Positions 17,401 through 63,900 of a stretch of 64,000 bases of DNA are shown here, piece after piece. The stretch comes from Micractinium sp. NFX-FRZ. Taxonomy: Eukaryota > Chlorophyta > Trebouxiophyceae > Chlorellales > Chlorellaceae. Within the stretch, counting starts at the first letter, position 1. Each line of letters opens with the position of its first letter. The notes under the pieces were generated by a model. The model saw only the letters and a program-made list of their open reading frames with translations. It searched no databases and had not been told where the DNA came from. Location: the NCBI GenBank assembly GCA_029339195.1, contig JAPTJF010000043.1:1-64000 (forward strand). Reading direction: 5' to 3'. The translations under genes were made by a program, and so were the position numbers.

Positions 17401-20400
17401 GCCCCTGCCTCCAGTGCTGCCCTCACCCCTCCGCTTCCCCCTCTCCTGCCCCCACCTCAGGTGGTGGAGGGCGTGGCTCACCTGCACTCCCTGGGCATTG
17501 CGCACCGTGACCTGAAGCCCCAGAACTTGATGTATGTGTCGGCGGATGAGGGGGCGCAGGTGAGCGGATCCCACAACAATAAGGAGTTCAACACTGTTGG
17601 ACCGTGGCAGCAGGTGGGAGGGGCGTGCAGCAGGAGAAAGAAGAGGGGGGCAGGCAGTGATGGCAGGGCAGCGCAGCTTGAAGCTGCAGGAAGACGAAGA
17701 AGAGTACAGCCTGGGGGGTGGGCTGAGGAAACCAGCGGAGGGGCAGAAAGTGATGTGCGTTTCTCCGATGTGGCCACCCTTGAGCCATGCATGCGTGCCA
17801 CTGATCCCCTGGCACGATGGCAGGTGAAAATAATGGACTACGATCTGGCCAAGGTGAACTATGCCCCCACCTGGGAGGGGCACACACCCTGCGGCACCAT
17901 ACACTACATGTGAGGCGGCAGAGGGGCGGGAGGCAGGTGGGAGGCTGGCAGGGGGGCAGGGGCCGGTGCTGGGGAGGCGGCAGCAGCAGGAGGAGAGGGG
18001 AAGGACTGGGCAGGGGACGGTTGGTGGCAGAGGTACCTGGGCCACCCAGGCAGCACGTGACGTCTCTGCACCAGACAGAAGCAGCTGGGTGACCTGACCC
18101 TGACAGACAAGGTAGCACCCTCCGCTCTACTGCACCGTGTGCTGTGTGCGCTGTGCTATGCTGCCGCCACCCTGCAGGGCCCCCGAGATAGTGCAGCACC
18201 AGAAGTACTCGCTGGGTGTGGACATGTGGAGCCTGGGCGTCATCCTGTTCATCCTGCTCACGTGAGGGGGGCCGGCCAGGGTGCTTTGAGAAGGCGTGTG
18301 TTGTGGATTTATCCTGGCACGAGACCGGATTGGAGAGCAGAGGTGGCGGGAGGGGCGGCAGGGAGGGAAGGAGGGCGAGGCGGACAGGAGGGCAAGCGGG
18401 GAGGTCAGGGGGATTGTGTGCACAGCTAGAGCACGCTAGGACACACACCATATTTTAATTCAGTAAGTGGCATCGCGTCTCTGCCGGCCCACACTATCCG
18501 CTGTAGCGGGCACATGCCTTTTGATGGCAAGGACAACGAGAGCATTGCTGAGGCCATTGAGGCGGGGCGGTACAGCTTGGACCCAAAGGTACTGTACTGC
18601 CTGCTGACCTGGCAGGGAGGCAGCGCTGCCTGCTGACCTGGCAGAGGGGAGCCAGCATGGCAGGTTGTGCGGCAGTAGAGCCTGGCTGAGCAGGGGGCAG
18701 ATTTGCCAGCCGCAGCTGTATGGAGGGGCCGCGCCCCGTGCACAGGTGTGGGTCATTGCGCCTCTGAGGAGGCTTGAGACCCGCTGCGCAGCCTGCTGCC
18801 GCTGGCACCGCCCTGGCCCGTTAATCCCTGCCCCCAACTTGTGCGGCTGTAGGGGGCATTGTTTCAGAGGAGGCTGGATTCCTGCTGCACTGCCCTCACC
18901 CGCCACCCTCGCCCCCCTGTCCCCGCCCGGTGCAGCTGTGGGGCAATGTGTCGGAGGAGGCTCGGGACTTGGTGCGCTGCCTGCTGCAGACAGAACCTGA
19001 GAAGAGGCCCACGGCAGAGCAGGCACGTGGGTGGGTGGGGTGCCAAGGGGGCCTGGCATCCCACTAGAGGAGAAGCAGCAGCAGACGCAGGAGCAGCAGC
19101 AGTGGCAGCAGCAGCAGCCCTGCAGCCTAGCATCCCAAAGCTAGCATTGACTTAAGTTGCTGGGCAGGCAGGGGTTTGGTAGAGCTAGGCTGCCCCATGG
19201 CGTTGCCCGCTTGAGCCCGCAGGGTGGGTGGGTGACACCTCCGGCCGCCGCTCCACCGCCACCGCCCTCTTTGTTTGCGCCTCCCTCTCGTTGCACAGCC
19301 CCTTTCGCCTCCGTCCCCATTTTGCCCGCCCGCTACTTATCCAACCCATGATGGTGCCACCATGCCGCGCCGCAGGTGCTGGCGCACCCCTGGCTGCAGG
19401 CCCGCCTGGAGGAGCGGCCTCCTGTGCCGCTGGCCAGCCCTGTGGAGCTGCGCAGCACGCTCAGCAGGACGGAGCGCGGGCGCACGCTGCTGGCGCTGGC
19501 GGCGCTGGCCCACTCGGAGGGCGACCTGCGGCGGCCACGCCAGCACAGCGCGGAAGCCATGGCAGCGGTGTCCAAGGCACTGGCCTCCGCTCGCAGTGAG
19601 TGTGGGTCTGGTGCTGAGGGTGGCGGGCTGGGGCAGCAATGCTGCTGCAGCACTGGGGGAGGCTGGCTGGGGGCCCTGCCTGCTTCCCTGGGGGGCTCCC
19701 TTGCAGGCAGGGCAGTACGGTACCGCTGCTGCTGTGTGTGCATACATAATTGTATGGTACCCGCTCCAGTGGTCACCCTGCGGGCTCTACTCAGCCCTGC
19801 CCGCTTGCCCTCCATCCGACTGCTCTCACGCCACCGCTGCCTGCTGTGTGCAGGGCGGCCATCGCAGCGGCTCAACGCCACATCCCCCGCCGCCCTCGAC
19901 TTTGACATGCAAGCAGTGCGCAAGCAGTCGGAAAGCCCGTGTGGAGCGGTAGCAAGTGGCGCTGCAGACGGCGGGGCCAAGGCAAACGGCAGGGCGGCAG
20001 TCTGCGACCACAATGACTCGGCATTGGCACTGCTGCGCTCACAGCTTGCCATCATTGGCACGGCAGGGGGCCTGCAGGACCGGCAGGCGTTAGAGGCACA
20101 GGGGGTTGAGCTGCTGGGTGGGTCGCCACGCGGGCAGCAGACGGCAGAGGGCCCCGCAGCGGCAGCCCTGCAGCAGCAGCAGGCGGGCAGCTGCGCGGCG
20201 GCGCCGGGGATGCCAGCAAGGACGCCAGCAAGGATGCCAGCTGTCGACAGCTTTGCTGACCTGGACGCGTTGGAAGTCGAGGAGACAGAGCTGCCCGGGC
20301 AGCAGCTGGGCTCCGGCGGGCGCAGCCGGCGCAGCAGCTTCAGCCAGGCCGGCGGAGGCAGCTTCACCAACGGCGGCGGGGGTGGCAGCGCCGCCTTTGG

Positions 20401-60926: not shown

Positions 60927-63900
60927 CTACTGCTGGCGCAGCCCAGGTGGGAAGTTGTGCCCCGCTCCCGGCGCGGGCGGCTGCGTCTTTGCCTCCAGGA
61001 AGCGGTTGAGCAGGGCGACGGTGGAGGCGTTGAAGCCGTCGGCGGCGCTGACCTGGCGCCCCGCGGACCGCGCCTCCGCCACCTTGGCGCGCACCTTGTT
61101 GGCGAGCACCTGCTTGTGTGCAGGGGCAAGGAACCAAAGAAGCAATGTTATGTGAGATGGATGTCTGCGCCACGTTGGCACGCACTTGAATGTTGTGGGG
61201 GCGAGCCGTGTCATGTTTGTTGTTAGTTCCTGTACAATAGAGTCAAGCCAACATGGCTCCCCACAACTCCAAACACCCGCACGCTCTGCCCGTACAGGGC
61301 GCAGTAACTGAAACTTTTGAGGCAAGGGGAGGCGCCACTCACCTTGCCCAGCTCCACCCCCCACTGGTCGAATGAGTTGATGCCCCACACAAAGCCAGAG
61401 GTGGCCACGCGGTGCTCGTACAGGCTGCGCAGCAGCACATACATGGTGTGGGGAAAGGGAAACAAGAGGGGCAATGGTGGGGAGAAGAGGCGTGCACGGG
61501 GGCAGGGGAGATGGCCCAACACACAACCAGAGGTGGCCACGACGTGCCCATATTGGCAGGCTGGGTAGCGGGGGTATTGGCACGCACAGACGAAGGGTGC
61601 CTGCTGTTGCGTGGGAGATGTGTGAGCAGGAATGCCAGGGCAGCACAGCGTCCCCTGCACCAGAGTCACACGCTCACCTCAGCAGCTGCCCCAGTGTGTA
61701 TGCGTTGAGCTCAGGCAGCAGGAGGCTGAGCGAGGGGCGGTTGCCTGCGGGGCACAAATGGGACGGGATGGGGAGCAACAAGACGGGCAACAGGGTGGGC
61801 AGAACAGATGGTGGGCGGGCGGATGCGTGCGCGGCAAGCTGGGACAGCTTTGTACGTACAAAACGTACACATGCAGCGCAGCAGGCACGCGTTTGCCCCG
61901 GCAGCACACGGCCAGCCATGGAGATCCCACTTACCCACCCTGCCTCCCGATGCACCATGTGAGACCCTACATTTCGTAGCGTATAGCAGGACAACCATTG
62001 AAACCCCGCCCACCCGCCCACCCACCGGTGAAGGTCTTGTGAGAGACCAGGTGGTCGGGCACGCCCTCCGCCCTCAGCGCCGCCTCATCCTTGCCGCTGG
62101 CCAGCGCGTCGGGCTGGGCAAAGAAGTTGCACATCAGCTCCTCGTGGCTGCTCACCTTCTCGCCCTGCACGTGTGGCACAGCAGGAACAGCATGGCAGGC
62201 AGCGCCAGGTAATGGTCAAGGCATGGCGCAGTGCGCCCACTGCCTGGTTGGCAGGCTCAAGGGTTGCTAACCGCTGCCTCAGGGGTACCGGCGCCACTCA
62301 CCCTCAACCCAACTGCGGGTAGACATCCTGCTGGCTGCCTCGCCACTCTTCTTGCCATACCAAGCACCTGAATTTATTTTTCTACTTCACCCACCCGCAG
62401 GTAGTCATTGCACCCACCTGCAGATAGACGTCCTGCTGGCTGCGCGCCACGCCGATGAACTCGGCAGGGATGACGCGGCCCTGCAGGGGGGCACGCAGGG
62501 GTGTGTGTTGCATTACACCGCACTGGTGCTGTGATGCGGGAGAGGGGGATGCGTCAACGCACCACGCCGACGATGTCAGCCGGAATGAAGCGGCCCATCC
62601 AGTCGCCGGATTTACTGAACTGATACACCCCACCCACCTGGTGTATGAGCTGGTAGAACGAGTGCTGCCCATTGGTGCCCGGCTCGCCAAAGTCAATCTC
62701 CCCTGCAGGCCACCACGTATGGCCATCACAAAAGTGCGTGCAACAGAGAGATGAGTGGGGAGGCAAGCAAGCAAGCAAGCAGAAGGGTGCCCAAAGTCAG
62801 GCCCAGCTGCAGCCCAGGTGGTCAGTCTGGCGGGGCACATGGGAAGGCGAGGGGGCACCCTCACACTAGCGGGGGAAGGCGCAGAGCTGCAGATGCCGCC
62901 GTGCTGCCTTGCAGCAACCCGCCCAATTCCGCGCCCACACCACGTGCACACGACGCACCCGTCTCGTAGGGCAGGCGCGTGCCGTCCAGCGCCACCCCCT
63001 TGCCGTTGCTCTCCATGGACAGCTGCTGGATGTGGGGCGCAAAGTGCTGCAGCGCCTGCTGGTAGGGCAGGATGGCGGTGGTGGCGTGGCCCAAAAAGGT
63101 GGTGTTCCACACCTGCGGGCGGGGAGGGGAGAGCAGGGGGCAGCGAGGAGGCAGAGCGTGTGCATGTGATGCAAGTACTGGAGAAACCGTGCCCGAAGGT
63201 GGTGTTCCACACCTGCGGGCGAGGGAGCGGAGGTAGGTGCGCAGGGTTGGGGGGGTGGGCTGGGCTGCGAGGCAGGCGGCGCAGGTGCGTGGCTGGTGCA
63301 CACTGCCAACCTCCCCCCACCTGTCTCCTGCTGAGCCCCCGTGCACCAAACCCTCCCCAAGGCTACCTTTTCTGCCCCTCCCCTCCTCTTCCCCCGCACC
63401 CCCGCAACCCCTCACGTTCAGCAGGCCCAGCAGGGCGGGCAGGTTGTCCTGCAGCGGGGCGGAGCGGAAGTGGGAGTCCATGGCGTGCATGCCCGACAGG
63501 AAGCGCTCCATCACCTGCAGAGCAAGTGGGGCAGGGAGTTGGCGGGGCAAACAAAGCATGCGCCATGTGAGTCGTAGAAAGATGAACAGTTGCTAACTCA
63601 AACAAACGGTGTGCGTGCCCGTCAGGAGGCATCCCACCACCAGGGGCGGCTAGCGCAAAGTCAGGCTTGCGTGCGGCTCCAATGCCTGCACAATTGGTGC
63701 ACCCCAGGCGGCTCCTGCTGCACCGTTGTTATGGCAACCAGCAAACCGTATTTGTAAGTTCTGAAGGGACGATGCAAACTCGTAAAATGGCACACTGCAG
63801 TCACGGCAGTTCAGGCACAGCAGCAGCCGTGTAGACGCTCACCGGGAAGCCGTAGTGGAGGGAGAGGGGCACCATGCCGACGGCGGAGGACACGGAGAAG

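Follow-up and report, generated by a model that had tools for sequence, protein, structure and literature searches.

What leaves pieces of exons inside the introns that adjoin them? The question is raised by a 64,000-nucleotide stretch of the green alga Micractinium sp. NFX-FRZ (hereafter the window: positions 1-64,000 of contig JAPTJF010000043.1 in assembly GCA_029339195.1, a genome of 66.07 Mb in 838 contigs), where exon ends and exon starts, often together with their donor or acceptor, reappear about 100 bases away in the neighbouring intron. It is probable that these intronic exon fragments are relics of recurrent tandem duplications of about 100 bp across splice junctions. About 1 in 8 sampled introns (67 of 518) retains a readable copy of its own exon edge.

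Exon edges inside their own introns

Donor-side exon edges recur in their own intron in 37 of 518 cases, against 0.32 expected from unrelated edges, and acceptor-side edges likewise in 37 of 518, against 0.16 expected; reversed introns give none on either side. The donor-side probe comprised the final 50 exon and 8 intron bases and the acceptor-side probe the final 12 intron and 50 exon bases, the null was drawn from introns of other loci (19,315 comparisons), and copies were accepted at a Smith-Waterman (SW) score of at least 30. These 74 copies lie in 68 introns; removal of one case at an assembly gap, described below, leaves 73 copies in 67 introns. They are present in 19 of the 24 sampled loci as well as in the window, and 40 of the 56 copies scoring at least 34 lie at an offset of 75-135 from their source. 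The preliminary description of the window had claimed that exon-edge pieces reappear in neighbouring introns; comparison with the null bears this out, with a strong excess and preferred offsets rather than random placement.

The wider sample consists of 24 stretches of 10 kb from other contigs (L002-L025). Gene models for it and for the window come from a hidden Markov gene finder, self-trained on the sampled sequence in 31 overlapping segments; they are ab initio and error-prone. The gene finder converged at 573 introns with a median length of 239 nt and a predicted splice consensus of CAG/GTGAGB for donors and CTGCAG/G for acceptors (the slash marks the splice point). By the same ab initio estimate, about 8% of predicted donors in the 304-kb sample are GC rather than GT, and predicted acceptors are almost always CAG (98% C at -3). 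The 518 introns remain from 564 non-redundant ones after dropping those with a flanking exon part shorter than 20 nt or a length outside 60-900 nt; without the upper length limit the set numbers 523.

The window itself holds 13 copies (SW score at least 30, gap case excluded) in 7 of its 12 predicted genes, and 11 of the 13, in 6 genes, fall within 18744..63220, the interval to which attention had first been drawn. Multiple genes are affected, as had been stated, but the count of at least eight is not reached among the predicted genes. At least one further copy (62558-62596) is hidden: it is missing from the window count because the gene finder took this piece of the GPI (glucose-6-phosphate isomerase) gene for an exon. 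The copies catalogued in the window are the following.

7047..7079, minus strand: copy of acceptor and exon start, outside the interval above (source 6965-6998, offset 82)
18746..18935, plus strand: predicted intron of tandem copies (at about 18729-18799 and 18826-18894, exon copy 18921-18987; in-register score 17)
35974..35992, plus strand: copy of acceptor and exon start in a DDX46/PRP5-like gene (source 36087-36105, offset 113)
37162..37207, plus strand: copy of exon end and donor, the copy being absent from the protein (source 37055-37100, with helicase motif PTREL, offset 107)
38900..38934, plus strand: copy of exon end, donor lost (source 38728-38762, offset 172)
48166..48181, plus strand: short, weak exon copy of 16 nt (source 48066-48081, offset 100)
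52608..52631, plus strand: copy of exon end and donor (source 52468-52490, offset 140-141)
54484..54578, plus strand: copy of exon end, donor and intron start (source 54379-54486, offset 105), with a further exon-end copy at 54645-54668
59054..59091, plus strand: copy of exon start, AG lost (source 59170-59208, offset 116)
61514..61569, minus strand: copy of acceptor and exon start in GPI (source 61382-61433, offset about 132-136)
62307..62346, minus strand: copy of exon end and mutated donor in GPI (source 62412-62450, offset 105)
62558..62596, minus strand: copy of exon start in GPI, misread as an exon by the gene finder (source 62443-62481, offset 115)
63196..63232, minus strand: copy of acceptor and exon start in GPI (source 63096-63131, offset 100)

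At 37162..37207 weaker similarity extends on into the intron. In GPI the start of one short exon is copied on its upstream side (62558-62596) and the end of that exon on its downstream side (62307-62346); two further exons are also copied. Another example is found at 5130-5740 of L018, where one exon is preceded by two copies of its acceptor-and-start portion and followed by two of its end-and-donor portion; this exon, which presumably encodes part of a ubiquitin C-terminal hydrolase, records repeated rounds of duplication at the same junctions.

The copies do not appear in the two spliced proteins compared with solved homologues. Spliced GPI (one exon end corrected by hand) aligns with homologue 7e77, and the spliced DDX46/PRP5-like helicase with homologue 7evo, without gaps at the copy-bearing junctions. 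The closest GPI protein matches are from Micractinium tetrahymenae (87%), Micractinium sp. (86%) and Chlorella vulgaris (83%).

It is very improbable that the copies as a class are an assembly artefact, in which two haplotypes or repeat ends were joined in tandem. One such case does exist: an exact 87-nt repeat (55448-55534 and 55639-55725) flanks a 104-N gap at 55535-55638, mimics the finding and was rejected as a scaffolding artefact. Moreover, of the 59 copies that align over 20 or more exon bases, only 3 reach 95% identity, as if the assembler treated exact ones differently. This scarcity may mean that recent exact duplications were collapsed in the draft assembly, or that the process has slowed. 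However, the 20 loci checked contain no N, exon similarity often stops within the exon, and the copies are as a rule 72-95% identical and frameshifted, with no codon bias in their differences, unlike a second allele. The earlier statement that the copies are not assembly artefacts is right in general and wrong for the repeat at the N gap.

Orientation, distance and placement of the repeats

The repeats are direct and keep a preferred distance. A blastn comparison of the window with itself gives, at offsets of 100-150, 16 direct repeats and no inverted ones, with none in a shuffled window. In 300 kb (the 24 loci and the first 60 kb of the window, its last 4 kb being excluded), 76 direct and 0 inverted repeats are found at offsets of 55-160, the direct orientation and short distance that mark short tandem duplication, against 2 in order-2 shuffled DNA; at offsets of 160-320 there are 33 direct and 2 inverted ones. 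In 80 kb of two phages of 63.5% GC, used as a control, there are 2 direct repeats and 1 inverted one. When offsets 15-1499 are scanned without gaps, the pairs form a hump at 60-130, drop sharply beyond about 135 and trail off in a thin tail; a second, lesser hump lies at 20-40, and past offset 600 the background is 0.1 per 10 bp. Chance is ruled out as a source by the shuffles, the unrelated edges and the reversed introns. That short local duplications reaching across exon edges are frequent here, as the preliminary description held, is supported by the direct orientation and the excess at edges.

Repeats of this size class run throughout gene bodies. Removal of a 1337-nt minisatellite array in L021 reduced the pairs at offsets of 60-160 from 82 to 81. 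Among these, junction-intron pairs (24 observed against 11.7 under random placement) and exon-intron pairs (23 against 16.9) exceed expectation, with 20 intron-intron pairs against 22.4, 11 exon-exon pairs against 12.0, 2 exon-junction pairs against 5.2 and 1 junction-junction pair against 1.6. The original focus on exon edges is justified by the excess there but too narrow, as repeats also lie wholly within introns (20 of 81) and wholly within exons (11 of 81). The prominence of exon edges is probably due in part to selection, which holds the exon copy while both members of an intron pair drift. The exon-exon pairs are mostly in frame, the offset being a multiple of three in 8 of 11.

Two coding repeats in the window are recorded here in their own right. 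The DDX46-like coding sequence contains an in-frame duplication of the same size class (34839-34929 and 34956-35046, 117 nt apart, 79% identical), and a degenerate array of 54-78 nt units occupies 48670-49343 in a predicted exon, corresponding to a repetitive protein tail.

No pair touches the predicted intergenic DNA of the window and L002-L025 (37 kb), where 8.3 wholly intergenic pairs were expected (about 8-10 for offsets of 55-160), nor do any of the 85 pairs of the ungapped set. The duplication process may be tied to transcribed regions, the intergenic sample being only 37 kb of ab initio calls.

Insertion of introners, or of another dispersed element, into the introns is scarcely credible as the source. 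Introners have been reported from green algae (PMC9860276, in the portion available), but the copies match their own adjacent exon, unrelated exon edges match at the null rate, and a search of the 66-Mb genome with one 179-base copy region returned a single match, the region itself.

Form of the duplicated unit

We propose that local tandem duplication recurs within gene bodies, with a unit of about 60-135 bp and a peak at 100-130. When the unit spans a junction, one complete junction would be used and the spare would land in the intron: past the donor in use, or ahead of the acceptor in use. Such an event would be tolerated because splicing ignores one copy and the mRNA is unchanged. The intron would lengthen by roughly a unit. 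The leftover exon fragment and its GT or AG would be free to decay. The exon part would stay recognizable longest, its template being kept by selection. The original event would thus be a whole-unit tandem duplication, after which intron DNA would be rewritten faster than the exon-derived copy; its mutational source might lie in staggered breaks (through fill-in or end-joining), in flap ligation or in slippage.

Introns with a copy are longer, with a median of 333 nt (n = 68, one being the artefact) against 230 nt in those without (n = 450, p = 7e-13), which agrees with the earlier proposal that duplications lengthen introns. In the 61 single-copy introns the median is 325 nt. Length models were built from copy-free introns, allowing for the room that a copy needs. 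Insertion of a whole unit predicts a median of 354 (Kolmogorov-Smirnov (KS) p = 0.13), insertion of a short patch 280 (KS p = 0.002) and no insertion 242 (KS p = 1e-8). Whole-unit insertion is the best of the three, with an imperfect fit; later deletion could explain the shortfall in length. Homology on the intron side exists on average: the mean z over 65 cases is 1.83, with 38% of them exceeding 2 and none falling below -2, and the recomputed intron-part z is 2.03 (44% above 2).

Several results weigh against duplication of whole units. The whole-unit length fit is somewhat off by the Mann-Whitney U test (p = 0.029), and length minus offset is smaller than in copy-free introns (KS p = 0.023). 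When whole-unit duplication is simulated with simple neutral decay, the intron-part z is 6.4, against about 2.0 observed; nearer values need intron copies that change 3-4 times faster than the exon-derived copy (3.25, 2.42) or an admixture of patches (1.11). Alignment over at least 85% of the unit is found in 67% of detected simulated junction-spanning duplications, against 6 of 47 observed exon-intron and junction-intron pairs. Similarly, only 3 of the 16 pairs that are at least 89% identical are full-length, and of the remaining 13 only 3 have a flank that exceeds the null 95th percentile. Among intron-intron pairs, 10 of 20 align over at least 85% of the offset.

These observations bear on a different origin, in which repair copies a short patch (20-60 nt) from nearby and inserts it in direct orientation at a distance of about 100 nt. 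This origin is possible but rather unlikely. It is favoured by the 13 near-identical pairs that are not full-length, 10 of them without a flank above the null 95th percentile, by alignments shorter than those of simulated whole units, and by an intron-part z of 2.0 that is closer to the patch simulation (1.1) than to simple whole-unit decay. However, templated insertion of the polymerase-theta type is expected to yield inverted copies too, and none was seen at offsets of 55-160 in the 300 kb. The intron-part z is above that of the patch simulation (44% against 20% above 2), and the introns are longer than patches predict (325 against 280, p = 0.002). Finally, of the 56 exon-containing pairs, 24 lose their similarity 1-13 nt into the intron, where the splice consensus lies, and 14 keep it for at least 40 nt. 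Similarity that tends to end at the splice site is not expected of random patches and argues for unequal decay instead.

Duplication across junctions followed by such unequal decay would leave exon-derived DNA outlasting the adjacent intron. Candidate causes are conversion by the exon, the mutability of intron tracts rich in G and C, or selection. More specifically, duplication might operate in gene bodies only, with about 105 bp as its preferred quantum, introns growing stepwise, the exon-derived copies later being kept exon-like (e.g., by conversion) and the surrounding intron quickly rewritten; we hold this fuller version to be doubtful.

Decoy splice sites, intron birth and related systems

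The copies show decay of the neutral type. Mismatches in the 73 copies fall on all three codon positions (96/748, 106/750 and 127/746), and 32 of 34 alignment gaps shift the frame; of the 34, 30 are of 1-2 nt and 2 are multiples of three. The spare signals are kept in 25 of 36 cases for GT and 25 of 37 for AG, where about 0.75 is expected from exon identity squared. Mismatches blind to the codon, frameshifting gaps and GT/AG retention at the neutral rate therefore point to decay as in unconstrained sequence, and the view that copies are tolerated in introns agrees with it. The duplications also supply decoy splice sites, as had been suggested. Decoys score below the real site in the median (4.4 against 6.8 for donors, 4.2 against 7.8 for acceptors), and 10 of 36 donors and 7 of 37 acceptors match or outscore it.

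Retained copies could in principle serve the gene, as pieces of alternative or mutually exclusive exons or as conserved decoys that regulate splicing. Many decoys score as usable, 28 of the 36 donors and 26 of the 37 acceptors being above 0, and exon-derived segments appear to last longer than the intron around them. Such a function is nevertheless improbable: the coding constraint of tandem or mutually exclusive exons is absent from the mismatches, which differ little between codon positions, and from the gaps; the offset is a multiple of three in 24 of 73 copies; and GT and AG are retained no better than under neutrality.

The preliminary description had also suggested that the duplications create introns, which finds no general support. 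Across the 523 introns, in-register homology between donor and acceptor reaches a score of at least 18 in 3 introns against 3.16 expected, and of at least 22 in 2 against 0.25; AGGT intron gain was rejected on this test as a general outcome. A gapped comparison gives 10 against 1.80 expected at a score of at least 24, an excess that is not specific to intron gain because repeats within introns can produce it too. The best candidate for an intron born by tandem duplication is 18746-18935, whose donor and acceptor lie at matching points of copies 1 and 3 (54 of 71 columns identical).

Intron growth, and perhaps rare intron birth, can here be observed within a single genome. Natural decoy donors and acceptors occur here by the dozen, with their origin and distance known and in graded states of decay, and lend themselves to tests of spliceosomal choice between duplicated sites. 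Gene finders can be misled by the copies, as in GPI, and the size preference calls for a mutational cause. Internal gene duplication has reportedly been treated by Gao and Lynch in 2009.

Related events are known from other systems, compared here as described in the available portions of the respective reports. In the potato RdRp gene, a tandem genomic duplication crosses an intron-exon boundary (Ma et al., 2016; PMC4974935). As in the alga, the duplicated segment spans the boundary and a former exonic piece turns intronic; however, the potato case concerns one gene and results in a new intron, whereas in the alga dozens of junctions are involved and an existing intron usually just grows. Novel introns in Drosophila have been linked to local duplication (PMC2891723). 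These and the case of Hellsten 2011 (as cited in PMC4974935) resemble the alga in that coding sequence with proto-splice sites is duplicated locally and one of the two copies intronized, but such gain requires donor and acceptor in register, which the algal introns lack in general, with one candidate. Exonize, with which degenerate exons and duplicated exons inside introns can be catalogued (PMC12343006), likewise deals with exon-like sequence within introns of the same gene; it handles whole coding exons, whereas the algal copies are partial edges with junctions, in about 13% of introns.

In mammalian cells, break repair by Pol alpha-primase/CST fill-in yields small tandem duplications (PMC8355091). 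These are direct, local and short and offer a plausible source; the system is mammalian, and the available portion of that report describes no size preference near 105 bp. Introners also alter intron content in green algae (PMC9860276), but as dispersed families rather than local copies. Among the matches listed by searches of the open-licence full-text literature, a scope that mostly excludes subscription journals, there was no report of such a density of copies in an alga or chlorophyte, and an Auxenochlorella paper offered no lead. The duplications proposed for Micractinium would be a known kind of event, present at unusual density and with a size preference.

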